Origin: a virus
DNA length: 22,029 bases
Reading direction: 5' to 3' (one strand)
Virus record (IMG/VR): IMGVR_UViG_3300030103_000364
Coordinates: 1-22,029 of that record
Shown here: positions 1-21,517 of the stretch, piece after piece
Layout of the letters: each line of letters starts with the position of its first letter
How positions within the stretch are numbered: position 1 is the first letter of the stretch
The notes under the pieces: generated by a model
Databases searched by the model: none
The model's input: the letters and a program-made list of their open reading frames with translations, nothing else
What the model was told of the DNA's origin: nothing
Position numbers and translations under genes: made by a program

Positions 1-3000
1 CTATCAATACGCATAGATTCAGAACCATTTGCAGAAAATTTAATTGGATTACCTGCAATATCAATAGTAGCAAATGCATTAGCAGCATCATTAATACCTT
101 GTAGTTGAACTGTACTGTTAGTATTTTGAACAGCAAAGTTTGCATCTGTTGCTACTTTTACTCTTAATGGTGCTGTTGTGCTTGTAGTTCCAATGGAAAC
201 CTTGCCATCACTAGCAATACGCATTTTTTCTGCACCTGCTGGGAAGAAACCTATAGCATTTCCAACATTGCCAATTTCTGCCTCTCCATTATTATCCTTT
301 AATTGTATTGCAGCTACAGAATCTGTGCTTTGAAATCTAGCAACTACATTTGATGTACCTGAATTTACATGAAGTGTGTAACTAGGAGATGAGTCTCCAA
401 TTCCTACTTTGCCTGAAGAATCAATACGCATTCTTTCTGTGTTGTTTGTGCCAAAGACAATATGTGCGTTTTCAGCGTTCCATAAAAATGCACCACTAGC
501 ATTATTTGCATAAACACCGCCTGAAAGGTAGAGGTTTTTGAATCTTGCTCCTGAAGAACCTAAATCTATAGCATTATCATTATTAGTTCCATTACCATTA
601 GCAGGAGTTATTGTGTCTGTAGCGTTTGCAAACTTTAAAAAAACATTACCTTGTCCAACTTGTATTGCACTGCTATAAGCACTAATACTTCCAACTGTTG
701 TATTGTCTTTTCTAAATAATGCAATATCTCCATCACTGGTTCTACGATTTAAAATTAAAGGGGCATCTCCATTTCTTGTTGCTACAATAACATCTTGTCT
801 ATTTAACTCAATACCATCGGTTGCTGTACCTTCTGCTGTTTTACCAACTAATACAGTTCCATTAGAATCTATCCTCATTCTTTCTGCTGTAGCAGCACCT
901 GTTGATTGTGTTTTAAATGTTAAAGCAGCATTAGTTTGTGAACCATCTTGTATTGCTAATATTTCTGCTAAATTTGAATCAAAATCAGTATTTCCAAACC
1001 TTAATATTCCTAAATCTCCTGAAGTATTTGCACTTGTTCTTGAAAGTAACAATACACCTGCATCTCCACTATCAACATGTAAATCTGTTTGTGGGCTTGA
1101 AGTTCCTACACCTAATCGCCCTGATTCATCAATAATCATTCGGTCTGTTAGTGTGCCATTTGTAGCTGAAGTAGAAAATGTTAATTCTCCTCCTACATTT
1201 CCTGCTGCTTTAGTACCTTTAATCTTACCAAAATTATTTGGACTGCCTGTTCCTGAAGTAAATCCTTGAAAACTAATTGCTCCACCAACACCTGTAGCAG
1301 CAGATGTAGTATCTCTTACTATAATAGTTGCTGATGAACTGTGTATGTCTAAAGCTGTTGAAGGACTACTCGTTCCAATTCCAACATTTCCTGAACTATT
1401 TATTAAAAGAGCATCAGAACTATTTGTCACAACCCTGTATGTAGAAGTAGCTTCTAATCTTAGCTCATTATTGTTCCAACCTATTCGGCTATTAGTAGCT
1501 GTGTCGTCTGAGTTTCTAAATTCAATAGCACCAAAGTTTGCATTGACGGTAGTTCTATATACTCTTATGCCTTCGTCACCCCCTGTTTGAATTGCAAGTT
1601 TAGCACTTGGACTGTCAGTTCCAATTCCAACACGCCCTAAAGCATCTATTCTCATAGCTTCTACTGGTGCATTAGATGTATCAGATTTTGTAGTAAAAGC
1701 TAACCCAGTAGAAGAACCAAAAGTATTTTCAGCAACTAAATTTATTGTTGCTCTTGGATGACTAGCACTACCTGAACTTCCTGATGTGTCATCAGAGTCA
1801 AATGCCAAGGATGACATAGTATCACCTACGCTAAAACTTGTATCTCTAGTGTCAGTAATTGTTAAAACAGCAGCAGAACCTGCTACTTCTAAAGCTGTTG
1901 AAGGACTACTCGTACCAATTCCAACCGAGCCACCAGCTTTTACTACGAATTTATCTGCTGTTCCTGCTGAACCAACACTTAATGCTACATCATCTGTTGC
2001 ATCACCTGCCTTAATTCGTACTCCATTGCCTGTAGCTTCAAAAACATCCAGTCTGTAACTTGGCGAAGCTGTGCCGATTCCAAGATTTCCTGCGCTTATA
2101 TGGTTTGCTGTGCCATCTGCATAAAAAGCTATTTTTTCTGTAGTACCATCAAACATATGGAAACGAGCTTTGCCATCTGCTTTTTCACCAACTTTAAATA
2201 TAGCATTTGTACTACCATTAGCTTGTAGAGTAAACCCAGCATCTTGTGAACTTGTAGAGTTTGATTTGACTGTTAAAGGAGAGGTTGGCGAAGTCGTGCC
2301 TATTCCTAATCTTTCAGTACTAGCATCCCAAAATAGAGCTTGTGTAGTTCCTGTATCTTCGTAAAAGGATATGTCTCCAAGATAGTTTATAGATAATCGT
2401 TTTTTGTTATTAACAGCTAGACGGATTTCTTCAGTAGCATCGTCGTTTGTCGGGATAATAACTATCCCCGTTTGCTCAATAGAATCACCAATCCAATTAA
2501 ACGTATTAGGAGTTTGTGGTAAATAAATCTTTCCGTTTGCACCGTCTAGGGTAAGACCATCCATTGTGGCTGTACCTGTTACATCTATACCTGTTGAGGT
2601 TGTTTGAAGTTTAGTAGCTCCTCCGCTTTTTATAAAGGCATTTCCATTAATTAAATTAAGAGCATCTTGTCCTGCTGAATTTTGCAAATAAATGTGTGTG
2701 CCTAATATAAACAGCGAGCCATCAGCATTTACCTCATGAATATACGATTGATTATTAGCTGAGTGATATATCTTTAAGTCATTACCAGCACCAAATAACG
2801 CTTTGTCATCATCGCCAAAATTAATATCAGCACTTGTTGTTAAACCATCTGTTGTTATTACGCCTGTTACATCTATACCTGTACCAAAGCTAACTGTACC
2901 ACTATCAGCAACTACTAAAGCAGTAGCATTGTTACCAACAACAGTAGTTGAGCCAGTTCTATAAATAATATTTGCACTATTAGCTCGGTTATTAAGAGTG

Positions 3001-5102
3001 TCTGACATTAAGATGCCACCTGAGCCTACTTTTACATCATGATTAAATATAGCTGTACCAGCATCTGACATATCAAGAGTAAGGGCTGTTATAAGAGAAG
3101 TGCCATCTTGTCCTTTAAAGACTATATCTCCATCATCAACTTGTGATTCAATTTGAAAATTATCGCCATTTTTTAATATTCTTCCATATTCTGTAGAAGC
3201 ATCAAAAAATCTTATAACTCCACTATCTGAATCAAGAGAAATGTTTCCACCTACATCTAAAGTAAAATCTCCACTATCAGAAATAGTAGAACCATTAATA
3301 GTTATATCATCTACTGTAAGTGTTGTAAGAGTTCCAAGACTTGTAATATTAGGTTGTGCTGCTGTTTGTAAAGTACCTGTAACATTACCCTCTAAATTAG
3401 AAACTAAAGTGCCTGTAGAAGTTAAAGTTATATTACCTGTAGAAGTACCATCTGCTGTAGTAAGTCCTAACGCAAACTTATCATTAGACTCGTCCCACAT
3501 AAAAATAGCATTGTTTTGATTACCTCTGTTTATTAACATACCTGAATCATTTACAGGACTACCTGTTAATCCTGCATTAAGCTGAAATAAATTATCTTCT
3601 ATATCTAAATTTGTAGTATCTAAAGAAGTAAGTGTTCCATTAACAGTTAAATTACCTGCTACAGTTAAATCATTTGCTATTTGTACATCTGAGGGTAATG
3701 TTAGTGTTATATCAGCAGATTCACTTCCACTACCTGATACTGAAATTTTATTAGCTGTACCAGTAATGGTTTGTACATAATTACCAGTAGTATCTGTTCC
3801 TAAAGCTACGCTATTTGCTGCTATTGTGGTACTTAAACTTATATTACCTGTTCCATCGAAGCTAACACCTGTAGCTGTAACATCTCCTGATAAAGCAATA
3901 GTTCTACCTGTAGCAAGTGCTGTAGCAGTATCAGCCACAACACCGCTTAAATTATTAATAAATGTGTTTGTAACCCTAGCATCAATAGCAGAATTTGCTC
4001 TTGCATCTGTATAGTAAAGATTAGAGCTTCCTTCACCTATATCATCTGTATCAAATGTATGTGAACCACCTAATGCTATTGCTTGTGAATTGATTGTTAC
4101 ACTTGAATTAGCAAGTTTAGAGTTAGCAATAGAACCAGCTAACATAGCATTTGTAATACCACTTGCTTTTACTCTAAGTGCATCTGAATTTATTTCTATA
4201 GAAGAATCATCAACGCCTACAGCAAGTGTTACATCTCCTGAAGTACCACCACCTGTAAGACCATTACCTGCTACTACAGAAGTTATATCCCCTGTTTGTC
4301 CATCTATTGTAAGAGTTCCAGCACCATCATTGTATGTTAGTGTAATTCCTGTTCCTGCTGTTAATAATGTGTTTACTTGGTCATCTACCCTTTCAGCAGT
4401 AAAATATTTGTTTGAACCCTCCCCAATATCATCTGTATCTAAAGTTATGTTTGCAGTACCATCAAAACTTACACCTGATATTGTTCTAGCTGTAGCTAAA
4501 GCAGTAGCAGTAGAAGCATTACCAACTAATGCACCTGTAACTTGATTAAATACCACATTATCTGAAGTACCAACAGATTGACCAATAGCAAAAGTTACGC
4601 CATTACCTGTAGCTGTTGATGTAACACCTGTACCGCCTAATAGCGATAAAGTTTCTGAATCTAAATCAATTGCAATAGTTGAGCTACCATCTGATATATC
4701 TAAATCTTGTGCTGTTACCTGGCTATCTACATAAGCCTTAATTGATTGTTGTGTTGCTAAAGCTGTTGCTGAGTTTGATGCTAAATTATCTTCGTCAAGT
4801 ATTGAGCTAACTGTTGAACCTGAACCAAAACTCAATGATGTAATACCATTTATAGTACCTGCATTTATATCTACTGCATTGTCTGTACTTATACTCATTG
4901 GCATGGTTATCCATGCTGTATTATCAGAATTTCTTAATTTCAAAACTCCTGTAGCAGTATCTATCCACCATTCATAAGCAAAAGTTGTTGAAGGTTGTGT
5001 TGCACCACTATTGTTCGTTGCAATAGCAGATAAAGCATTATTTAGGTCTGCTCTAAAATCTGCTCCTGATTGATTTATTAAATTATAATCGTGTTGTGCC
5101 AT
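1..5102 (-). CDS. Giant repeat-rich tail fibre protein, C-terminus cut off by the window
   Basis: This reading frame stays open from ATG 5102 to the left edge, giving 1700 complete codons and no stop, so the gene continues outside. A GAGGA ribosome binding site lies 7 nt before the ATG. The N-terminus (MAQHDYNLINQSGADFRADL, then a WWIDT motif near residue 46) is, from memory, the usual head of fibre proteins in marine phages. Residues about 90-480 hold paired modules (DTDDIGEGS, LATxRTI, GVSFDGT). From about residue 930 to the edge there are roughly ten imperfect repeats built on MRID-S-G-x-VGIGTSSPS-x-L-x-V, spaced about 55-100 residues. Low aromatic content and high Ser/Thr/Ala/Gly/Asn fit a beta-rich trimeric fibre. 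It probably sits at the tail tip and contacts the host surface. An S74 chaperone domain may follow beyond the edge, but that is a guess. Confidence 0.9.
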   Translation of the reverse strand, partial: MAQHDYNLINQSGADFRADLNNALSAIATNNSGATQPSTTFAYEWWIDTATGVLKLRNSDNTAWITMPMSISTDNAVDINAGTINGITSLSFGSGSTVSSILDEDNLASNSATALATQQSIKAYVDSQVTAQDLDISDGSSTIAIDLDSETLSLLGGTGVTSTATGNGVTFAIGQSVGTSDNVVFNQVTGALVGNASTATALATARTISGVSFDGTANITLDTDDIGEGSNKYFTAERVDDQVNTLLTAGTGITLTYNDGAGTLTIDGQTGDITSVVAGNGLTGGGTSGDVTLAVGVDDSSIEINSDALRVKASGITNAMLAGSIANSKLANSSVTINSQAIALGGSHTFDTDDIGEGSSNLYYTDARANSAIDARVTNTFINNLSGVVADTATALATGRTIALSGDVTATGVSFDGTGNISLSTTIAANSVALGTDTTGNYVQTITGTANKISVSGSGSESADITLTLPSDVQIANDLTVAGNLTVNGTLTSLDTTNLDIEDNLFQLNAGLTGSPVNDSGMLINRGNQNNAIFMWDESNDKFALGLTTADGTSTGNITLTSTGTLVSNLEGNVTGTLQTAAQPNITSLGTLTTLTVDDITINGSTISDSGDFTLDVGGNISLDSDSGVIRFFDASTEYGRILKNGDNFQIESQVDDGDIVFKGQDGTSLITALTLDMSDAGTAIFNHDVKVGSGGILMSDTLNNRANSANIIYRTGSTTVVGNNATALVVADSGTVSFGTGIDVTGVITTDGLTTSADINFGDDDKALFGAGNDLKIYHSANNQSYIHEVNADGSLFILGTHIYLQNSAGQDALNLINGNAFIKSGGATKLQTTSTGIDVTGTATMDGLTLDGANGKIYLPQTPNTFNWIGDSIEQTGIVIIPTNDDATEEIRLAVNNKKRLSINYLGDISFYEDTGTTQALFWDASTERLGIGTTSPTSPLTVKSNSTSSQDAGFTLQANGSTNAIFKVGEKADGKARFHMFDGTTEKIAFYADGTANHISAGNLGIGTASPSYRLDVFEATGNGVRIKAGDATDDVALSVGSAGTADKFVVKAGGSVGIGTSSPSTALEVAGSAAVLTITDTRDTSFSVGDTMSSLAFDSDDTSGSSGSASHPRATINLVAENTFGSSTGLAFTTKSDTSNAPVEAMRIDALGRVGIGTDSPSAKLAIQTGGDEGIRVYRTTVNANFGAIEFRNSDDTATNSRIGWNNNELRLEATSTYRVVTNSSDALLINSSGNVGIGTSSPSTALDIHSSSATIIVRDTTSAATGVGGAISFQGFTSGTGSPNNFGKIKGTKAAGNVGGELTFSTSATNGTLTDRMIIDESGRLGVGTSSPQTDLHVDSGDAGVLLLSRTSANTSGDLGILRFGNTDFDSNLAEILAIQDGSQTNAALTFKTQSTGAATAERMRIDSNGTVLVGKTAEGTATDGIELNRQDVIVATRNGDAPLILNRRTSDGDIALFRKDNTTVGSISAYSSAIQVGQGNVFLKFANATDTITPANGNGTNNDNAIDLGSSGARFKNLYLSGGVYANNASGAFLWNAENAHIVFGTNNTERMRIDSSGKVGIGDSSPSYTLHVNSGTSNVVARFQSTDSVAAIQLKDNNGEAEIGNVGNAIGFFPAGAEKMRIASDGKVSIGTTSTTAPLRVKVATDANFAVQNTNSTVQLQGINDAANAFATIDIAGNPIKFSANGSESMRID
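1348..1385 (-). repeat. Near-identical 38-bp direct repeat, copy 1, in the giant fibre gene
   Basis: This segment matches 1888-1925 at 37 of 38 positions. Both encode the same fibre repeat core (VGIGTSSPSTALD/E). The copies lie 540 bp, or exactly 180 codons, apart. Such near identity at DNA level inside divergent protein repeats suggests a recent duplication or gene conversion. Confidence 0.85.
1888..1925 (-). repeat. Near-identical 38-bp direct repeat, copy 2, in the giant fibre gene
   Basis: Partner of 1348-1385. The single difference is a T/A change in the triplet for the residue before the IGTSSP core. The other repeats of the same protein motif in this gene are far less similar at DNA level. 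Confidence 0.85.
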
Positions 5103-10806: not shown

Positions 10807-12503
10807 TATACAACTCCCATTTTTCCTTGATTGTTCATAGCATTATTAATAATGCTTGTTATAAGACCTTTTCTTGATGCTAATAACTGGTCAAAACCTG
10901 CTGCATCTACTGTTGATATATTAAAATTAACTGTTGCTCCCATGCCCTGACCTTTTGTATGGTCTATTACAGTTTCATTAGGATGTAATATTGCTGGAAA
11001 ACCACCTTTACCATCTATACCACCTGACCTTGAACCACTACCTGTAAAGCCACCACCATCTGCACTAAATAATTTACCAAATGATGAAAACGATTGTTCA
11101 AAAAATCCTGTTAATGGTTTTAATATTGTTTGTTGTATAGCTATTCTTAAAAGTTGTTCTACAACAAAATCAGCAAAATCTTTAAACTCTAATTTGCCTG
11201 CTCTTAATGAAGAAACAATAGAATCTTCAAATTTTTTCATTGATTGTACTGCTGTTGTTTCTAATGTTTTTTGTAGTCCTTTCTCACCAAGACTATCTTT
11301 AAATGCTTCTATTGGACTTAATAAATTTGTAAGACTTGCACCAAATTCATCGCTACCGTTTGTAATTCCCTCATAAGATGCTCTTAAATCATCTAAAGTT
11401 AATTTGTAATTTCTTACCTTGTCTGCTGTAACTTTTGATTGTTCACCAAAATTAGAAGTACGCATATTTATAACTAATAACTCATTATTAAGTATAAATA
11501 TTTCTTCTTGCAGTCCTGCAATTTCTTTTTCAAATGCACCAAATGGTCTTAATCTAAGCATGTTAATTTGAAATTGTGCAAAACTTATCTGTAATTCTTT
11601 TAGTTTTGCTTCACCATCATTTACAAATTGTGTTAGTTCGTCTTTAAATAAACCAAATTGTTCAACACCAACTGCTACAAATTCAATAATAGAATTAGCT
11701 ATTTTTAAACCTAGCGCATCCATACCACCAGCATCATTTATCATTTGTTGTATTCTTTTAGATATTTCTTCTCTAAGTTTTTCAAATACTGGTAAAAATG
11801 ATGTTGTTATATTATTAACAAAAGAACCTATCTGTTGCTTAATAACGCCTATAGCATCATTAAATTTTTCTGTTCTTCTTATAACAGTTTCGTCTAAAAC
11901 TAATCCTAATTCTTTTGCTCTAGCAATAAATTTTGTTAATCCTTTGTCTGATAAGTCTGTAATAGCACCAGTCAAAATAACACCTTGCCTTCCAAATAAA
12001 TTTGCTAAAGCTGTTGCTCTTTGTGTTTGTGAACTTAAATTAGATATGCCTTTTGCAGAATCTTCAAGTATTTCATCAAATGAACGCATTGAACCATCTG
12101 CATTTTGTATTTCTACACCAATGTCTTTAAAAATATCAGCTTGTGTTTTTAGACCTCTTCTAGCGTCACCAACACTTCTAGCAAATTTAATTAATGCAGT
12201 ATTAGCACCTTCTATTGTAGTACCTGATTCTCTTGCTGCTAAATGAAATGCCTGTAATGTATCAGTAGCTATACCAGTTTGTGTTGCAGTTTTACCAATA
12301 GCATCAACAGCCTGGAATGACCTATCAACAACTAAAGCAAGTGCTGTAGCTGTTCCAGCAGCAGCTACGCCAATACCAGCAATACCCTTAGATGTTTTAG
12401 CTGCAACACCACCAATACCTTTTAAGCTATTAGTAACTTTATCAAATGCTGCTTTAGTCTTATCTACTGCTGTTAATTCAAACTTAACTTTTTTATTTGC
12501 CAT
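10806..12503 (-). CDS. Tail tape measure protein
   Basis: 565 aa, ATG at 12503, overlapping the end of the frameshifted chaperone extension by 11 nt. It is Ala/Gly/Lys-rich, with long helical stretches and one hydrophobic segment near the N-terminus (about 44-60, GIGVAAAGTATALALVV). Residues about 75-220 (ESGTTIEGANTALIKFARSV, then FGRQGVILTGAITDLSDKG) match the tail length tape measure family. The C-terminus carries a Gly-rich linker and GGFPAILHPNETVIDHTKGQ, a motif common at the end of lambda-type tape measures. It sets tail length and is held extended by the chaperone encoded just upstream. At about 1.5 angstrom per residue the tail would be near 85 nm, on the short side for a siphovirus. 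That length is an inference. Confidence 0.9.
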   Translation of the reverse strand: MANKKVKFELTAVDKTKAAFDKVTNSLKGIGGVAAKTSKGIAGIGVAAAGTATALALVVDRSFQAVDAIGKTATQTGIATDTLQAFHLAARESGTTIEGANTALIKFARSVGDARRGLKTQADIFKDIGVEIQNADGSMRSFDEILEDSAKGISNLSSQTQRATALANLFGRQGVILTGAITDLSDKGLTKFIARAKELGLVLDETVIRRTEKFNDAIGVIKQQIGSFVNNITTSFLPVFEKLREEISKRIQQMINDAGGMDALGLKIANSIIEFVAVGVEQFGLFKDELTQFVNDGEAKLKELQISFAQFQINMLRLRPFGAFEKEIAGLQEEIFILNNELLVINMRTSNFGEQSKVTADKVRNYKLTLDDLRASYEGITNGSDEFGASLTNLLSPIEAFKDSLGEKGLQKTLETTAVQSMKKFEDSIVSSLRAGKLEFKDFADFVVEQLLRIAIQQTILKPLTGFFEQSFSSFGKLFSADGGGFTGSGSRSGGIDGKGGFPAILHPNETVIDHTKGQGMGATVNFNISTVDAAGFDQLLASRKGLITSIINNAMNNQGKMGVV

Positions 12504-12645
12504 TCCTTCTTCTCTGTTCAGCTAACTCTAGGTAAGCTATCCATCCTTGATATTCATGGACACTAATTTTTTGCAACTCTTTTAAAGTTTTGCCTAGCTT
12601 TTCAGCTAATGCATATTGCATGTATAAATTAGTATCCTCTATTAG
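12493..12645 (-). CDS. Frameshift-only extension of the tail assembly chaperone (gpT-like part)
   Basis: A 50-codon open stretch in the -1 frame relative to the upstream chaperone, ending at TAA 12495-12493 inside the tape measure start. It has no good start of its own. If ribosomes slip on A AAA AAC (12651-12645), re-reading base 12645, they produce a 161-aa fusion. The encoded peptide (LGKTLKEL, then HEYQGWIAYLELAEQRR) has the G-K-T-x-x-E-L ... E-x-x-G-W-x-A-Y-x-E-L pattern seen in gpT-type domains of tail chaperones. In lambda the G/GT ratio controls assembly, and the T domain recruits the tail tube and tape measure. The sequence pattern is seen directly. Slippage itself is inferred. Confidence 0.82.
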   Translation of the reverse strand, partial: LIEDTNLYMQYALAEKLGKTLKELQKISVHEYQGWIAYLELAEQRRRNGK

Positions 12646-12977
12646 TTTTTTTTAGTTTCCTCAATAGGTTCTTGTCCCATAATTTGAGTTGCAACATCAA
12701 CTAAGATTTCTCTATCAACATTGTTAAGCAAATCGTTCTTGTCACCTATGTTAAAAATTTTTTCTCCATTTTCATCAAGTGCTTTATAAATTAATACATA
12801 AGCCATCATTGTTAAGTTATCTTCTTTGCTCATTTTGTATAGCTTAGAAGTTTCGCCTAATGTTAATGGCTTTGTATAGATATTTAATGGTTTATCTTCT
12901 GAACCCCATTCAGGTACTTGTATTACTTTTACATCTTGCTCTGCAAAATGCGTTTTAGCTCTCTCTATAGCTTTCAT
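12642..12977 (-). CDS. Tail assembly chaperone, short form (gpG-like)
   Basis: 111 aa, ATG at 12977, starting 3 nt after the stop of the tail tube gene. It is acidic and mostly helical, with a beta-like start (DVKVIQVPEWGSEDKPLNIYTKPLTLGETSKLY is spread over about residues 15-47) and a helical second half (NLTMMAYVLIYKALDENGEK). This is the common pattern of short phage tail chaperones lying between tail tube and tape measure genes. The last codons form an eight-A run followed by C and then TAA, giving a classic -1 slippery site. The short product would coat the tape measure before tube polymerisation. It is not expected to be part of the finished virion. Confidence 0.82.
   Translation of the reverse strand: MKAIERAKTHFAEQDVKVIQVPEWGSEDKPLNIYTKPLTLGETSKLYKMSKEDNLTMMAYVLIYKALDENGEKIFNIGDKNDLLNNVDREILVDVATQIMGQEPIEETKKN
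12645..12651 (-). promoter_or_regulatory. Programmed -1 ribosomal frameshift site, A AAA AAC
   Basis: On the minus strand the chaperone ends ACT AAA AAA AAC TAA. The last seven bases before the stop, in frame A-AAA-AAC, are a canonical X-XXY-YYZ slippery heptamer inside an eight-A run. The stop codon follows at once, which favours pausing. A short inverted repeat (ATGCA-ATA-TGCAT) lies about 30 nt downstream, but I cannot say whether it stimulates slippage. No strong Shine-Dalgarno-like stimulator is seen immediately upstream, although GAGGA occurs 9 nt before the A run (ATTGAGGAAACT). Confidence 0.82.
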
Positions 12978-13531: not shown

Positions 13532-13978
13532 TTATACTGCTACATCAGGATTTTGTTCCTGGACATAGTATTTGGTTAAAAATATAAGGGTAGCTACCGC
13601 TAATGGTTTCTCTCCCTCTGCATTAAATTCAATTTCTGTACTTTCTAAATAACAATCTTTTGCTAAACCGTTTAGCGTTGTATCAGCAGCTATAGCACTT
13701 TCAATTTCTTTAGATGAAGTGTCTATAGTGTCGTCAAAGTTAGTTGTATCTTTAACGTATATTTCTACTGCTACAGATAAATTTCTTTCGCTTAATCTAT
13801 TTGTACTAATTACCATAGGCTCTGAATCCTCAGATTTTGTATAGATTAATAGTGCTGGTGTACCACCAGTTTCTAATGGGTAAACTCTACTTTGATAAAC
13901 TCTATTACCTGTTGTAGTCAATCCTGTTAGAGTTGTACCTATTTCTTCTCTAATTTGTTGTCTTACATGATTTGCCAT
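13532..13978 (-). CDS. Tail terminator protein (gpU-like)
   Basis: 148 aa, ATG at 13978 in a TAATG junction with the preceding connector gene. The N-terminal helix (HVRQQIREEIGTTLTGL), the segment NRVYQSRVYPLETGGTPALL, and the C-terminal strand EKPLAVATLIFLTKYYV are what one sees in tail terminator/minor tail U proteins. These close the tail tube with a hexameric ring at the head-proximal end. Location after the head-tail joining genes and before the tail tube gene is the standard place. No odd feature is visible. An alternative label would be tail completion protein of the DUF3168 type, which is structurally related. Confidence 0.72.
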   Translation of the reverse strand: MANHVRQQIREEIGTTLTGLTTTGNRVYQSRVYPLETGGTPALLIYTKSEDSEPMVISTNRLSERNLSVAVEIYVKDTTNFDDTIDTSSKEIESAIAADTTLNGLAKDCYLESTEIEFNAEGEKPLAVATLIFLTKYYVQEQNPDVAV

Positions 13979-14331
13979 TAGATTTCCTCTAACTCTAATG
14001 CAGTAAAACCTGTTCTATCACTCTGAATAGAAACAACTGTATATGTTTGTGCTGCTTTTAAAGTATTACCATTTACATCTTTTATAGCCGATGCTGCTAA
14101 TGTGTTTCCATGTGCAATACTAGGAACATCAATACTTCTGCAATATGCTATTGGTTGTGTTGCTTCAACTCCAACCTCTAAACCTTCTTGTTCTATAAAT
14201 TCATTATTTAAAATAATATTTATAGTTTTTGCTGTACCACTATTAGTCCATACAGCTTCAATACCATGTCCGTAATTAATATCTAAGTAAGCTGACATAT
14301 CCTCTTCAGTCTCCATTACATACGTTGACAT
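13978..14331 (-). CDS. Head-tail joining protein, paralogue B
   Basis: 117 aa, ATG at 14331 in a TAATG junction with paralogue A. It is a small acidic beta-rich protein. The middle reads TINIILNNEFIEQEGLEVGV, then EATQPIAYCRSIDVPSIAHG, and it ends in FTALELEEI. This lines up along its length with the neighbouring 133-aa protein: shared E-F ... E-G-x-x-V-x-V-E-x-x-Q-P-x-A ... D-V-P-x-I, and a closing beta hairpin. The fold pattern (acidic start, V-E-x-x-x-P, D-V-P) resembles lambda gpFII-type head-tail attachment proteins. It would sit under the portal as a connector ring. Confidence 0.7.
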   Translation of the reverse strand: MSTYVMETEEDMSAYLDINYGHGIEAVWTNSGTAKTINIILNNEFIEQEGLEVGVEATQPIAYCRSIDVPSIAHGNTLAASAIKDVNGNTLKAAQTYTVVSIQSDRTGFTALELEEI

Positions 14332-14732
14332 TATTGAGCTTCCAGTAAAACTGTAACCATGCCAACATTATCAGGTTGCACTTCTCTAACTATAAAAGTA
14401 GTTTCAGGTGTTAATACTGAACCTTTATTGGTTGTTATTGCATTTACAACAATCCTATCTTGTTGCGAAATATAAGGTACGTCACTAGCTTTTATCATTG
14501 CTCTAGGTTGATACCCTTCAACTGCTACAGAATTGCCCTCTATATTAAAAAATTCTTGGTCTATTAATAAATTTATATTAGTAGTATTTCCTGAATCAAT
14601 ATCAAACCAAGTATCTATAAGACCCTCTCTTGAATCCCATAATGCATTTTGTACTTCAAAAAATATAGCAGATACACCACCAATTTGGTTGTCTACATAA
14701 GAATTAAAATCTGCTGCACTTTCTAAAGCCAT
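14331..14732 (-). CDS. Head-tail joining protein, paralogue A
   Basis: 133 aa, ATG at 14732 with AGAGAT a few nt upstream. Segments NINLLIDQEFFNIEGNSVAV and EGYQPRAMIKASDVPYISQQ match paralogue B closely, and both end in a V-x-x-[VI]-Q-x-D-x-x-G strand pattern. The protein has a longer N-terminal helical part (SAADFNSYVDNQIGGVSAIFF) than its partner. Phages of this type usually carry one gpFII-like gene at this site. Two in tandem suggests duplication, with one copy perhaps acting as head completion and the other as tail-side connector. The family assignment rests on pattern and position, since identity to lambda gpFII is low. Confidence 0.7.
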   Translation of the reverse strand: MALESAADFNSYVDNQIGGVSAIFFEVQNALWDSREGLIDTWFDIDSGNTTNINLLIDQEFFNIEGNSVAVEGYQPRAMIKASDVPYISQQDRIVVNAITTNKGSVLTPETTFIVREVQPDNVGMVTVLLEAQ

Positions 14733-14990: not shown

Positions 14991-17564
14991 TTAATCACTT
15001 GATTTACAGAAAGAAACTGCATGTCTAACAGCAGTATCAATTGTTTGTAATGCAACTATTCTTAAACTACCTGATTTGCTATGTGTGAAAGGGTCTACAG
15101 TTATATCGAGACCGCCGTACATACCAATTAATAGGTCTGCAAAGTTACCAAAATAAAAGTCACCACTTGTTACTTGATTACTTCTAACAACATTGTAGCC
15201 ATTCATATTTCCGTCAGGTGAAACAACAAACTGAGCAGTACCAGTAGCCTTTTCAGTTGTTTTTAATGTTCCATAATCTGCTGGTCTACAAATATAGCTT
15301 AATGAACCCATTAGAGCATTATCATTAGCAACTGCGGATTCCATTGCAACAATCTCAGACCATGTCGGATTTGCAGCAGCAAAAGTTGTTGTGTTAATAC
15401 CTGAAGTATTCGCAATACCAGTAGGTTGCCCTGAAGAGCCACTACCAGCCAATGCACCTAAATCAATTGCAGTAGCGATTGATTGAGTTAAATCGTCTCT
15501 GATTAAGTTTTCAACATCTAGTGAAGATTGTTGTAACAATAGTCTTGTGACATCTGTATGCGCTCCAATTACTTTTGGTGACATTGTTACTGAACCAGTT
15601 GTAAATTCTGATTCGCTTGAATCTCCGCCTTCTGTAGCAATCCAACCAGCAGAAGCACCAGCAGTTTTCTTAGGTATTACAACATTGCCTTGTAATCCTC
15701 TAAGCATAGTAGCACCAGCTTGCATTACTGAAGATGCATTTCTTAGCACGTCTATGAAATCACCGCCCCTGTAATCTTCTGCTATAAGTGTTGAGTCATT
15801 AGAAGTATTTAAGTCTCTTTTCCAGTTTCTTAATACGTCTGTTGGTAACATAACACCTTGTGCTGTTTTACCATGTTCTCTAGCAGCAGCTTCAGAACAT
15901 TCAAATTCAAATGCTGCTTCTTCTTGCGCTCTTCTATCAGAAGGGTTAGCTAAAGCTCTAATTGCTTTTACTAAGCTAAATTTTCTGACTTCTTCTTTAG
16001 TCATACCGATTTCTGAAGGTGTTTCAAGTGGAGTATCGTTAGAAATATTTTCTAGTAATACGCCCCTAAATTCCTCTACAGAGATACCATCGGCAATCGC
16101 TTTATCAGCTAAATCTCTTTTATTGTGTCTAGCAGCTAAATCAATAATTTCTTTTGAATTTCTTTTAAATTCAGCTTTTGCTTCATCAATAGTTTGAGTT
16201 CTAACTTCGTCAAGATTAATATCTTGTTTCTTTTCGTTTTCCATTAGTTTTACCTCAATGTTTGTATTTTGTTTATCTTTAGAACGTCCAACTCCGACTA
16301 ACCTACTTTGGTCTGCTGGAATACTTACGGAAGATACTTCCATAGGTGTCCAACTTGCCTTGTAGTAAGTTTCATCGTCTTTACCCATTCTGTTTAATTT
16401 GTCGATTCTATAACCTACAGATATATTCATTCTTATATTGTCTTTTATATCCTCAAACACTTCACGGGCTAGAGCAGACTTACCAAGCCTTACTACTGCG
16501 GTTGTCCTTTTCGCAGTCTCGTCAAGTTTAAATTCTTCTATTACACCAATTTGTTTTTCCATGTCATGGTCTAACAATAAAGGCGCACGTCCTGAATTTA
16601 TAAACTCCATGTTTATATCTTCAGGTGAATGTCCTAGCACTTCCATGCCAAATGACCTTTCAACTGGCTCTTCACTTGATACGCCAACTCTTACTGTTCT
16701 AGTTTCCTCGTCAATATATGAGTTTTTAGATAAATCAATAGTTCTATACTTCATAGGCATATCTACTACTTTTCTATCTTCTTCTTCATCATAGTGATAA
16801 GGTCTTTCAGTTTCAGTCGTATCTATATCAACTGCTTCGCCTTCTTCTTTATCCTCATGTTTAGCAAATTCAACAATAACTTTATCGCCTTCTTCGCTTA
16901 CGTTGAGGATATGTCTATCTTCTTTATTCATATTCATTTCCTCTTCATTATTTAATAAAGGATTTTCTTCTGATTCTTGCAAATCAAAATCTGTTATTTC
17001 CCTAATAGGATTTATTTTTGTAAGTGTGCTGAACTTGTGACCAACTTCTGTATCTGTAGGTTCACCACTTCTATACACTTGAATTAATGCTGCTGGATTA
17101 TCTTCTGTACCAGTAACAGTAAAATCACTATTAGGAATGTTAATTTTTCCATCTCTTTCAATTTTTATAATTTTTCCTCTAGCTCTACCACCAGCACTAT
17201 TCCAGCTAACAAAATCGCCAACTTTTAGTGCGTTAGGTTCTGCTCTTTCATTTTCTTTATTCATTTTTTCCACTAATCTCCTTGACCATGAATATCCTGC
17301 ATCGCCACCCCATAATGCCCATGCAATTCTTCCGTTTGATGGATAGCCATCTTCACCAGGACTGAAGCCTTCAGCATCTTTGTCAACTTCATGTCTGCTA
17401 AAAAAACTAAACATTCTTTTTACAGTTTCTTCAGATAGATTTTCATTAGCCACTATCTGTCTAGCTCTTACAGCACCAACCCTTGTGCCACCTCTTCCAA
17501 ATTCTTCTCTCCAATCTAAGCCTTTTTTAGCTTCAGCTCTCATTCCTTCATTGGGTTTAGGCAT
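14991..17564 (-). CDS. Prohead protease-major capsid fusion with N-terminal module and Tudor-like domain
   Basis: 857 aa from ATG 17564, overlapping the portal stop by 8 nt. A TTG seven codons upstream is less likely. Domains in order: residues about 14-100, a module (DWREEFGRGGTRVGAVRARQ ... GRIAWALWGGDAGYSW) that I recall beside phage head genes but cannot name; about 112-185, a Tudor-like DUF2945 domain (VGDFVSWNSAGGRARGKIIK); an acidic linker; about 265-430, an S78 prohead protease with likely His333 (LLLDHD), Ser382 (MNISVGYR) and Glu409 (MEVSSVSIPAD); about 441-535, a helical scaffold/delta segment; about 560-857, an HK97-fold capsid protein (ASSVMQAGATML, GWIATEGG, SPKVIGAHTDVTR). Two internal ATGs, at 16931 and 16244, each have a GAGG site and could give 646-aa and 417-aa products. 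Confidence 0.9.
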   Translation of the reverse strand: MPKPNEGMRAEAKKGLDWREEFGRGGTRVGAVRARQIVANENLSEETVKRMFSFFSRHEVDKDAEGFSPGEDGYPSNGRIAWALWGGDAGYSWSRRLVEKMNKENERAEPNALKVGDFVSWNSAGGRARGKIIKIERDGKINIPNSDFTVTGTEDNPAALIQVYRSGEPTDTEVGHKFSTLTKINPIREITDFDLQESEENPLLNNEEEMNMNKEDRHILNVSEEGDKVIVEFAKHEDKEEGEAVDIDTTETERPYHYDEEEDRKVVDMPMKYRTIDLSKNSYIDEETRTVRVGVSSEEPVERSFGMEVLGHSPEDINMEFINSGRAPLLLDHDMEKQIGVIEEFKLDETAKRTTAVVRLGKSALAREVFEDIKDNIRMNISVGYRIDKLNRMGKDDETYYKASWTPMEVSSVSIPADQSRLVGVGRSKDKQNTNIEVKLMENEKKQDINLDEVRTQTIDEAKAEFKRNSKEIIDLAARHNKRDLADKAIADGISVEEFRGVLLENISNDTPLETPSEIGMTKEEVRKFSLVKAIRALANPSDRRAQEEAAFEFECSEAAAREHGKTAQGVMLPTDVLRNWKRDLNTSNDSTLIAEDYRGGDFIDVLRNASSVMQAGATMLRGLQGNVVIPKKTAGASAGWIATEGGDSSESEFTTGSVTMSPKVIGAHTDVTRLLLQQSSLDVENLIRDDLTQSIATAIDLGALAGSGSSGQPTGIANTSGINTTTFAAANPTWSEIVAMESAVANDNALMGSLSYICRPADYGTLKTTEKATGTAQFVVSPDGNMNGYNVVRSNQVTSGDFYFGNFADLLIGMYGGLDITVDPFTHSKSGSLRIVALQTIDTAVRHAVSFCKSSD
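16242..16259 (-). promoter_or_regulatory. Internal ribosome binding site and ATG for a separate major capsid protein
   Basis: Minus-strand GAGGT lies 7 nt before an in-frame ATG at 16244 (product starts MENEKKQDINLDE). Translation from here gives 417 aa, a normal length for an HK97-type capsid protein with its delta domain. It would leave out the protease. The signal is as good as those of the separate genes in this window. Actual use is inferred. Confidence 0.6.
16929..16944 (-). promoter_or_regulatory. Internal ribosome binding site and ATG before the protease part
   Basis: Minus-strand AGAGG lies 8 nt before an in-frame ATG at 16931 (MNKEDRHILNV), between the Tudor-like domain and the protease domain. 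Starting here would give a 646-aa protease-capsid protein without the N-terminal module. The site is in a Glu-rich coding stretch (GAA GAG GAA), so it could be coincidence. Confidence 0.4.
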
Positions 17565-19050
17565 CTTCGTCACTTCCACCTTCAATATTTGGTTCTAATG
17601 GCATTTTTGCTGCTCCAAAAGGTTGATATGCCAATTCAATATCGTATTGTTTAGCTAATTCAATCTCTTTTTGGTGTTGTTCAAATAATTCTTCTGTATC
17701 TCTGCCATAAGCAGCAGAAATATCTGAATAAGTTATTGTTCCGTTTTGTAATCCAACGACATTAGCTTGCATTTCTTTTAAAGGGTCAATCCATGCAAAA
17801 CTTCTTGGTATATAGTTGATAGCATTGGCAAATTTTTCATATTTACCCATCGGCAAATTGATATAGCCTGTAGATATAGACATTTCTAACCAAGATTTAA
17901 AAACTGGTCTTACAAAATGGTCTATTACAAACTGTTGATACAATTGATACATGCTTCTATCTTCTAAAGCACCTTGTCTTATTGATGAATAATTTACTGA
18001 AGTTAAATCGTTACTCAAAGCGTGGTATGAAATGTTTAATCCACTAGCAATACTTCTTAATACGTTTGTTGTAAATGATTCAAATGCAGAAGTGGGATGT
18101 GTAGGGTCAAATGCTTTAAAATCCATTCCTGCTGGTAATTGTTCAAATACGCCTGCTTGTGCATTAGTTGTAGGTGAAAAAGTATCTTCATACTCACCAT
18201 CGCCAACATAAGAATTGCCATCGCCTGAAGTAAAGAAACCCATTTTAGATGCTCCGACTCTTGCAGCAACTATTTCAGCTTCAAGATAACCATTTAACAT
18301 CTTCACATTAGCCATTGCAGTCGATACTAGAGATACGCCCCTAGTTTGCTCTGCTCTTTGTGGTAAATAAGCGTGTATTATTTCTTCTGCTGGAACTCTT
18401 ATATGTTGATTTTGACTAACATAGCTTCTATCGTATGGATGGTCTTTATATAAATGGTAAGCTACTGGCTTATCGTTCTTATCTACCTCAACACCCATTT
18501 TAATTTTATTGCCAGTAGGTTTGTATAAGTCATTCTTATTTTCATCTAAATGGTCTGCTTCTAAAAACTGTAATTGGAATCCAAATGGTGAATTGTTTAC
18601 TTTTACTTTTCTTATTAGTACTTCACCGTCTCTGCATAGTGATTCTATAAATATTTTTTGACAATCCAGGAAAGTTAATCTTCCATTTGTAGTACATACT
18701 CCTAATTGTTGCCATTCCTTCCATGCAGTTTCAATAAGCTGGTTTCCAGCAAGGTCTAGTGTGCCATTTGCGTTACGACTCTTGCTGGATACTCTTATGC
18801 CATGCTTTCCGATAACATTTGATACCATTAGGTTTAGGTATCTCGCTATGTAGCTATCGTTTCTTGCAAGCTCTCTAGCTCTATCTCGCAATATTCTTAT
18901 GTTATCTCGTATTTCTGCATCGGCACTTGTTGAACTTGTTAAAAAGTCTGCAAACAACCTACCTGTATTAGCACCTGTATAGCTTCTTCTATAAGGAAAT
19001 TTCTTTTGTTTAGGTTTTTCTCTTCCTAAAATTCTGTCATACCAAGCCAT
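17557..19050 (-). CDS. Portal protein, lambda type
   Basis: 497 aa, ATG at 19050 with GAGGT upstream and a TAATG junction with the gpW-like gene. It shows the lambda-type portal (Phage_portal_2) pattern: a basic start (YDRILGREKPKQKKFPYRRS), a helical segment (RDNIRILRDRARELARNDSY, about 47-66), then VLIRKVKVNNSPFGFQLQFL, LEADHLDENKN, and a HAYLPQRAEQTRGVSLVSTA motif near the middle. A stem/clip region and an acidic C-terminus (NIEGGSDEDA) follow. Twelve copies form the ring at one capsid vertex through which the terminase pumps DNA. Lambda gpB is 533 aa, so the length is normal. Confidence 0.92.
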   Translation of the reverse strand: MAWYDRILGREKPKQKKFPYRRSYTGANTGRLFADFLTSSTSADAEIRDNIRILRDRARELARNDSYIARYLNLMVSNVIGKHGIRVSSKSRNANGTLDLAGNQLIETAWKEWQQLGVCTTNGRLTFLDCQKIFIESLCRDGEVLIRKVKVNNSPFGFQLQFLEADHLDENKNDLYKPTGNKIKMGVEVDKNDKPVAYHLYKDHPYDRSYVSQNQHIRVPAEEIIHAYLPQRAEQTRGVSLVSTAMANVKMLNGYLEAEIVAARVGASKMGFFTSGDGNSYVGDGEYEDTFSPTTNAQAGVFEQLPAGMDFKAFDPTHPTSAFESFTTNVLRSIASGLNISYHALSNDLTSVNYSSIRQGALEDRSMYQLYQQFVIDHFVRPVFKSWLEMSISTGYINLPMGKYEKFANAINYIPRSFAWIDPLKEMQANVVGLQNGTITYSDISAAYGRDTEELFEQHQKEIELAKQYDIELAYQPFGAAKMPLEPNIEGGSDEDA

Positions 19051-19696: not shown

Positions 19697-21517
19697 TTAT
19701 AAATCTTTCCAAGAATAGGCAAAATTAGTACTTTTATGATTGTTTTTTAGTTTTTTAGGTTTGTTTTGTTCAATTGGTGCTTCATTATTAAGTATTCTGC
19801 TCTCAATCAAGTCCCAATTAGGGTTTAGTATGTATATAGCAGCAAAACAGTACACTAAACAGTCTAATGCTTCGTTTCTTGGTCGTGTTTGCTTCCAAAC
19901 TAACGATTTTCTACCTCTTATGAATTTAGCAACTCTTTTTTCTGCTGTAAGCTGTTTAAAGTACTCTTCATCGACATCTGAAGGGAAATGTAGGGTAGAT
20001 TGATTAGAATCTGTAGATAAACGTGCAAAAATGGCTTCTTTTGCTGAATCTGTACCTACACCATATAAAACTGCTCTATTTTTACCAACATAAGTAGGTT
20101 TATTGGCTATAGGCTTACCTGCAACACTTAAACCCTTTACCGCAAATACTCTTCTAGCTTGTCTAGGCTTAGTAAATTGATAAACTTGGTTGGTAGAATG
20201 TCCACCTGAGTCAATGCAAGTACATGATATAGGTATCATTCTTCCTGTTTCAGTTGTAAATCTCTTTTTTAAAAATGCGTCTAAGTCTGCCCAACAACCA
20301 GCAGCGTTAGGGTCTCCCCAAAATATACGATGGTCTATAACCCATGCTTCATAATTTTTACCAAAACCAGTAAGTGTTATTTCTAATCTATCTTTTTGTG
20401 TATCTACACCAGCAACAATAACCAAAACATCCTCAGGTATTGTGGTGTGGTCGTAATTTAATCTTTTTTCTAATAAAGTGTCATACTCTACTGCATCGCC
20501 CTGTTCTTCCCATGATTCTCCTAAAGCAGTATTTATAAATGTTTTTAAAGTTTCAGGATTTTTTTTAGCTTCTAAAAAGTTAGTAGCCATTTCACCCCAA
20601 GTTGACCAAACGCTATATAGTTCTGATATATGGAATCCAGCTACGTTAGATGTTTTGTTTGTTGCTCTCCACTCACCATTTTTAACCATCCATTGTTTTT
20701 TTGATTCTTCAATAACCACTCCACATTCTTCACATGCATAACTTGCAGTTTCAGGTTTATCTTCTTCCCAAATTACATTTTTCCATTTTAAAACTTGTTT
20801 ATGGTTGCACTCAGGACATGGGACATAAAAGTATCTTTTGTCTGACTCTTCAAAAGCATCTTCTATTATTGAGATACCTTTTATTGTTGGTGTTGAACAC
20901 ATAAATATTTTTCTATTCCAAAAAGTTTTAGTTCTAGCTGTTGCCAATGCTACTGGACTACCTTCCTTACCCATTTCATATCTATCAACTTCATCCATTA
21001 ATAATATTCTTATTGGTCTTGATGCTAAACCAGCAGCAGAGTTAGAGCCAACTATTGTTAGGTGTCCGCCAGCAAATTTTTTGTGCATAGTTGTATTGTT
21101 TGCATCTCTACTTCTTGCGTCTTTTACACAACCTCTTAACTTCTCACTATCTCTTATCATCGCTGAAAGTCTATCTTTACTAAAGGCTTGACCCATTTGT
21201 AAAGTAGGTTGCACTATTAATATTGGAGAAGCATCCTGGTCTATGTAATAACCTATAGCATTAAGTATGATTTCTGTTTTACCGACTTGTGAAGAAGTCA
21301 TAACAACAATCCTTTCAATGCTAGGATTGTTAAATGCATCCATTATCTCTCTTTGATACTCTGCTCTATCAGTTCTCCATTGACCAGCTTCAGCACTAGA
21401 TTCAGGCGATAGTTTTCTGTATCTATCTGACCAATCAGATATTTTTAGATTTGGTGGACTCTTCCATATCTGATTCGTATTCCGAACCACCTCTTCTATA
21501 TTTTTTAGGTATTCCAT
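19697..21517 (-). CDS. terL: Terminase large subunit, lambda gpA type
   Basis: 606 aa, ATG at 21517, overlapping the small subunit by 83 nt. The conserved start of the family (PPNLKISDWSDRYRKLSPES) begins at residue 21, so the true start cannot be much later. Walker A is SSQVGKT (75-81), Walker B is ILLMDE (171-176), and the coupling motif is CSTPT (207-211). A zinc-ribbon-like insertion has CPEC at 234-237 and CEEC at 262-265. The nuclease domain follows, with likely acidic residues Asp372 (VDTQKDR), Asp436 (CIDSGGH) and Asp552 (NEALDCLVY). It cuts concatemeric DNA and drives packaging into the prohead through the portal. Lambda gpA is 641 aa, so this is full length. Confidence 0.95.
   Translation of the reverse strand: MEYLKNIEEVVRNTNQIWKSPPNLKISDWSDRYRKLSPESSAEAGQWRTDRAEYQREIMDAFNNPSIERIVVMTSSQVGKTEIILNAIGYYIDQDASPILIVQPTLQMGQAFSKDRLSAMIRDSEKLRGCVKDARSRDANNTTMHKKFAGGHLTIVGSNSAAGLASRPIRILLMDEVDRYEMGKEGSPVALATARTKTFWNRKIFMCSTPTIKGISIIEDAFEESDKRYFYVPCPECNHKQVLKWKNVIWEEDKPETASYACEECGVVIEESKKQWMVKNGEWRATNKTSNVAGFHISELYSVWSTWGEMATNFLEAKKNPETLKTFINTALGESWEEQGDAVEYDTLLEKRLNYDHTTIPEDVLVIVAGVDTQKDRLEITLTGFGKNYEAWVIDHRIFWGDPNAAGCWADLDAFLKKRFTTETGRMIPISCTCIDSGGHSTNQVYQFTKPRQARRVFAVKGLSVAGKPIANKPTYVGKNRAVLYGVGTDSAKEAIFARLSTDSNQSTLHFPSDVDEEYFKQLTAEKRVAKFIRGRKSLVWKQTRPRNEALDCLVYCFAAIYILNPNWDLIESRILNNEAPIEQNKPKKLKNNHKSTNFAYSWKDL

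Follow-up and report, generated by a model that had tools for sequence, protein, structure and literature searches.

Probable nested translation and an interchangeable N-terminal slot in a prohead protease-capsid fusion gene of a marine phage

On the minus strand of the window, by which we mean the whole stretch of 22,029 nt that was analysed (IMG/VR record IMGVR_UViG_3300030103_000364, from a marine phage), a single open reading frame joins a head module, an Hva1-type Tudor barrel, an S78 prohead protease, a delta (scaffold) domain and an HK97-fold capsid, in that order. Comparison with homologous genes makes it probable that this is a nested gene, which would yield products of 857, 646 and 417 aa with the short capsid form in excess and with the modules at its front as accessory guests. 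Indeed, the signals found around two internal methionines strongly support that ribosomes also start at M441 and, in the clade of the window, at M212. Hence the description of the locus as one frame, given in a first-pass annotation, stands for the ORF, which is single, but should not be read as one protein.

The frame occupies 14991..17564 (-). It opens with an ATG at 17564, shares its first 8 nt with the end of the portal gene, stop included, and has its own stop ending at 14991 (857 aa); an alternative TTG start at 17585, seven codons upstream, gives 864 aa. The first-pass annotation had named the four domains, their order and these exact coordinates, all of which agree with the Pfam, NCBIfam and PHROG matches along the ORF, but it had left the strand unstated; on the plus strand 14991-17564 contains stops throughout. 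A Shine-Dalgarno (SD) sequence precedes M1 in 77 of 77 clade members, with a mean of -7.1 kcal/mol, so that translation of the 857-aa form is expected as well.

The head module (17235..17564, -; residues 1-110) is followed by the Tudor/SH3-like barrel (17013..17219, -; residues 116-184), where Hva1_TUDOR PF11160, formerly DUF2945, matches at 123-174 in the numbering of the 864-aa form with 27.3 bits against a cut-off of 24.1. An SH3-like barrel is predicted by AlphaFold2 at 118-184, and its most relevant fold match, 4p5n (TMt 0.60, rmsd 2.5, Foldseek E 0.25), is weak by itself. The protease lies at 16275..16772 (-; residues ~265-430) and is matched by the NCBIfam HK97 prohead protease model TIGR01543 at 334-428 (E 7e-7, 29.5 bits against a curated cut-off of 59) and by the protease/MCP-fusion model NF045541 with 140 bits against a cut-off of 525, over model positions 1-294 of 634 only. 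It gives no match to Pfam PF04586, a family for which two homologues of the same architecture (L350 and L353) pass. His333 and Ser382, which we take to be the catalytic positions of an S78 protease, are kept in 237 of 239 and 186 of 188 scored homologues, respectively, and the fused S78-type protease is predicted to act inside the prohead. The delta domain was placed by its conserved position and start at 15870..16244 (-; residues ~441-565, the 3' limit being approximate), and its scaffold role would be that of its HK97 and D3 counterparts. Finally, the capsid domain (14994..15761, -; residues ~602-857) is matched by TIGR01554 and by Phage_capsid PF05065 at 609-861 in the 864-aa numbering (E 6e-39, 134.6 bits against a cut-off of 24.2), while PHROG 617, 'major head protein', spans 279-862 (E 1e-147, profile positions 9-621 of 626).

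The neighbouring genes are those of a siphovirus-like phage, with portal (17557..19050, -; phrog_21, E 3e-103), terminase large subunit (19697..21517, -; phrog_15, E 9e-254), head-closure and tail genes. Several further features were observed on the minus strand. Two adjoining genes at 13978-14732 each gave a match to head-closure Hc1 (phrog_82) and may have arisen by tandem duplication, and a shorter gene lies at the corresponding position of the cultured Roseobacter phage CRP-811. At 12500-12977 a gene of tail-chaperone size ends in GAAACTAAAAAAAACTAATAG, likely a slippery poly-A site of a frameshifted tail chaperone, and is followed by about 138 nt more of coding-like sequence before the tape measure gene. 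At the left end, an ORF resembling a fibre gene, at least 1700 aa long and with repeated 'GIGTSSPS' motifs (3-5102), runs off the window, and the plus-strand ORFs found within these limits are antisense to it.

In order to compare the gene across its family, relatives were collected by a search of viral contigs, which returned 80, nearly all full length, and by two further searches, which added about 160. M441 (16242..16244, -; MENEKKQDINLDEV...) is the position at which delta-MCP begins, with a predicted product of 417 aa. Although the sequence linking protease and delta is hypervariable, 194 of 202 homologues have a Met at most 14 aa upstream of the delta motif. In the clades of the window and of CRP-811 this delta-Met is preceded by an SD, which is GAGGTAAAACTAATG in the window (GAGGT at 16252..16256, -, 7 nt upstream of M441) and AAGGAGATAAAAATG or AAAGGAGGCTACTATG elsewhere, and which persists while the residues encoded there change (IEVKLM, TKVRIM, FKEIKM, QKEATM). 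An SD energy of -6 kcal/mol or lower is reached at 66% of the delta-Met sites compared to 12% of 5171 other in-frame ATGs. The second internal start, M212 (16929..16931, -; MNKEDRHILNV...), stands where the protease part begins, has a GAAGAGG at 16940..16946 (-) and is predicted to give the 646-aa product; its support is confined to the clade of the window.

The SD signals were compared with shuffled genes in which the amino acids were fixed and synonymous codons were sampled according to the usage of the gene in question. The energy observed at the delta-Met was -7.04 against an expected -2.09 kcal/mol in the window clade (n = 17, p 8e-6) and -8.21 against -5.20 in the CRP-811 clade (p 1e-6), and at M212 it was -8.47 against -3.42 kcal/mol over 13 nonredundant sites (p 1e-4), all of these p-values overstating independence since the homologues are kin. 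Other ATGs displayed no excess of SD strength over the synonymous shuffles. Synonymous constraint, the z-scores of which are overdispersed (standard deviation 1.9-2.8), peaks gene-wide at M212 in the window clade, where the windows rank 1-2. All top 15 windows lie just after the delta-Met in the clade of Synechococcus phage S-CBS1, as do 6 of the top 15 in the CRP-811 clade, and the delta-Met of the window clade is not a top constraint site (best z 3.5 on this overdispersed scale, rank about 110). A second constraint peak of the window clade was observed within the capsid domain, at 15409-15454 (-; residues ~702-718, LGALAGSGS...GIANT).

By median, the RNA around the delta-Met falls within the 1% of gene windows with the least folding in the S-CBS1 clade, within 6% in the window clade and within 12% in the CRP-811 clade. 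An SD was looked for at the delta-Met of the S-CBS1 clade and is absent; given that this site is within the least folded 1%, the profile is the one expected for SD-independent starts. Furthermore, the more distant ep3-like phages have a Met at the same boundary, which is often preceded by a suitably spaced GAGG. A literature search that reached few of the subscription journals gave no account of such starts within fusions of protease and capsid.

The HK97 prohead contains 415 MCP and about 60 proteases, and that of D3 about 90 proteases (PMC12749128). A fused gene read from its first start alone would impose a 1:1 ratio of protease to capsid, whereas with nested starts the short capsid subunits would outnumber the protease-bearing ones and the excess of capsid would be restored. 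The starts at M1, M212 and M441 would thus provide a full form, a protease-delta-MCP and a delta-MCP, the last being the bulk subunit and the two longer forms minority subunits, and capsid would outnumber protease despite the in-frame fusion, as it does in HK97. By analogy with HK97 and D3, the long forms would be built into the shell by way of the delta-MCP part that they contain, and the protease and front modules of these minority subunits would point into the prohead; once the shell is assembled, the protease would cut delta and free itself together with the modules. The front modules would in this manner be loaded into the prohead by their fusion to a head protein. The same HK97/D3 biology agrees with the earlier proposal that the modules enter the prohead along with the protease.

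The main alternative is a single polyprotein, in which each subunit would carry the modules and the protease 1:1 and separation would be due solely to proteolysis after assembly; a proteolytic cut in the same linker could indeed part protease from capsid with no new starts. The intact frame of most relatives and the conserved catalytic positions of the protease are consistent with such a product, and fused protease-MCPs are already known in other phages, namely Paracoccus prophages (PMC6536676). However, it would leave unexplained why a variable linker keeps a Met together with an SD that depends on codon choice, as well as the synonymous constraint and the unfolded RNA at that Met, and it would put about 400 copies of protease plus modules in each prohead, far above the 60-90 of HK97 and D3. 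We therefore regard it as unlikely. Still less likely, to the point of being hard to credit, is that the SD-ATG signals are leftovers from formerly separate genes and now unused. The domains do exist as separate genes elsewhere and a fusion would have joined genes with their own starts, but signals without use would be expected to decay, while the SD outlasts residue changes and beats the synonymous expectation in well separated clades.

The four-part order module-Tudor-protease-capsid is identical in about 105 complete metagenomic ORFs, in the cultured CRP-811 (61% identity) and in a separate MAG contig (L336). The homologues sharing this fusion, which the first-pass annotation had proposed to look for, are thus numerous, and the architecture it had considered unusual is in fact common among relatives. 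That annotation had also taken a stop codon or frameshift in the linker regions of close relatives as the sign of an assembly error. A few relatives are broken, with an in-frame TAG in the protease of L136 and frameshifts in L255 and L344, all of which look like single-read errors. The TAG of L136 (L136:3868-3870) lies in a relative that is otherwise intact and is probably a sequencing error, and capsid could there still be produced from the internal start. Neither this stop nor the frameshifts of L344 were accepted as gene boundaries, being taken as errors or decay, and L255 does not show protease and capsid as naturally separate genes, since its frameshift falls inside delta. These few broken relatives would speak for an assembly or sequencing artefact, but such an origin is virtually inconceivable when many contigs, with about 105 ORFs between them, and CRP-811 agree in the order of the parts; on this comparison the four-part fusion is confirmed as genuine and assembly error is excluded.

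The region in front of the protease differs between relatives. Designating the head module H, the Tudor domain T, the protease P, the capsid C and two other small modules X1 (marked by 'RGVGAYYTNP') and X2 (marked by 'RPYPNEHAARL'), the roughly 105 ORFs above are H-T-P-C, and the other complete ORFs are H-X1-P-C (65), H-P-C (48), H-X2-P-C (28) and module-X2-Tudor (9), plus rare orders, with 73 P-C that have no recognised front module. Genomes with different fronts become homologous again at one position, immediately ahead of the Met of 'MNKEDRHILNV'. The closest case is L047, which is 95% identical from residue 196 onward, yet has no head module and no Tudor: its gene begins right after the portal with MNNDLTGFDSV, and neither module was found elsewhere in its 34.4-kb contig. 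L047 is the only one among the window-like genomes that truly lacks a module; L449 and L463, listed as module-less by a script, were rejected as they look like frameshifted copies, and L481 was left out as evidence since its open frame begins past the M212 region.

These sequences lead us to infer that the N-terminal slot is modular and that the front modules can be exchanged for one another and are accessory, not essential. Given that they are naturally absent or swapped, an essential role in assembly or a dedicated regulation of the protease is argued against; for assembly as such they are not needed, as the close relative L047 does without either module. Since the proteins to which they are fused are head proteins that presumably face inwards, the modules are most likely low-copy guests inside the prohead.

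The head module matches phrog_2859, a family of unknown function (E 4e-32), as do 14 of 14 aligned modules, and has invariant residues at A12, G25-G26-T27, R33, M51, R57, W85-G86 and G90. AlphaFold2 predicts a five-helix domain (pLDDT 94.4, pTM 0.85). Searches gave no match in Pfam (best E 0.044, for one homologue), none among PDB sequences and none to a PDB fold by Foldseek (best E 4.6); weak matches to HTH_Tnp_Tc5 and PRA-CH were set aside as chance level. The module is joined to S78 proteases that have no capsid part (L297, L346), to portals (L280, L288, HRTV-4), to ClpP-type proteases and to a portal/gpF-like protein, and it is also present in phage head proteins for which predicted structures exist. 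In the phages L280 and L288 it is fused together with X1 to the portal C-terminus. The modules also exist as separate genes, another expectation of the first-pass annotation that was borne out, in Vibrio phage 1.123.O, S-CBS4 and PaBG, and as an adjacent pair in Limnohabitans DC31 (head module in gp129, Tudor in gp128). Moreover, the same domain, with 43-57% identity for phrog_2859 and the free homologues, is encoded on the chromosomes of sphingomonads, rhizobia and other proteobacteria as a stand-alone protein of about 105 aa. Unlike the phage fusion, these homologues are chromosomal and single-domain or, in Xanthomonas, tailed; no neighbour is conserved across families around the free-standing bacterial genes. 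The Xanthomonas proteins (L390, L391, L406, L413) have a long Lys/Ala-rich tail resembling histone H1-like proteins, below the cut-offs of those families, and a conserved C-terminal 'KAAGRPYPNLVDNMAVA' motif.

Among several roles that may be considered for the head module, a nucleic-acid-associated one is the likeliest and is put forward tentatively, being favoured by the H1-like tail of the Xanthomonas relatives and by the setting. The module might bind nucleic acid or the packaged genome within the head, a reading with which its partners, head proteins that would face the interior in HK97-type heads, are consistent, and the annotators of PaBG labelled the module a DNA-binding protein. On the other hand, neither an HTH or other DNA-binding family in Pfam nor a PDB fold in Foldseek was matched, and in Xanthomonas the tail rather than the module may be the DNA binder. 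A specific regulation or targeting of the protease by head module and Tudor appears improbable: the modules usually directly precede an S78 protease, even where no capsid is fused (L297, L346), but the head module is also found on portals, gpF-like and ClpP-type proteins and alone, and protease-capsid genes free of modules are common, as the 73 P-C ORFs and L047 show. Rather more speculative, and in our opinion doubtful, is a long product acting as a cargo loader, whose swappable guests, one of them related to the free proteobacterial protein, would enter the prohead as a few copies, be cut loose by the fused protease and leave together with the genome, their target being the host nucleoid or the incoming DNA; the nested starts would then set the number of guests per head.

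With respect to known systems, the PHROG 617, NF045541 and ep3-like fusions also have protease, delta and capsid in one frame, and ep3 is homologous over residues ~272-855 of the window protein with 40% identity; unlike the window gene, ep3-like genes have neither head module nor Tudor, and internal starts are unmentioned in the annotations and literature examined for these fusions. CRP-811, of the CRP-822 type, shares with the window both the four-part order and the gene neighbourhood; its gene is annotated merely as 'major capsid protein', and the paper describing it contains neither 'protease' nor 'fusion' (PMC12629253). CRP-821 and CRP-406, in contrast to the window, have the head module with other front modules or alone. 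In Synechococcus phages S-CBS1 and S-CBS3 the head module precedes the protease-capsid and a conserved Met precedes delta, as in the window, but X2 takes the place of Tudor and the internal Met has no SD. HK97 and D3 differ in having protease and MCP as separate genes and no front modules, while the predicted delta-MCP of 417 aa is close in size to HK97 gp5 (385).

An in-frame internal start in a protease gene that gives a second, shorter head-assembly product is known from lambda C/Nu3, where the nested product is a scaffold, not a capsid, and the protease family is unrelated to S78. By sequence comparison, the window gene would likewise have an internal start with its own ribosome site. We regard the gene as a protease-capsid fusion whose N-terminal slot is swappable and which very likely gives rise to nested products.

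Protease-capsid fusions pose a stoichiometry puzzle, given that the capsid subunits of HK97-like heads outnumber the proteases about seven to one. The conserved internal starts, if true, would solve it, and they are testable in the cultured CRP-811, S-CBS1 and ep3-like phages. For annotation, caution is advised in that the whole 857 aa should not be equated with 'the major capsid protein'. The head module itself is a widespread, structurally uncharacterised domain common to phage heads and proteobacterial chromosomes, and the swappable slot at the front of the gene would be a natural way of loading foreign domains into the capsid interior.
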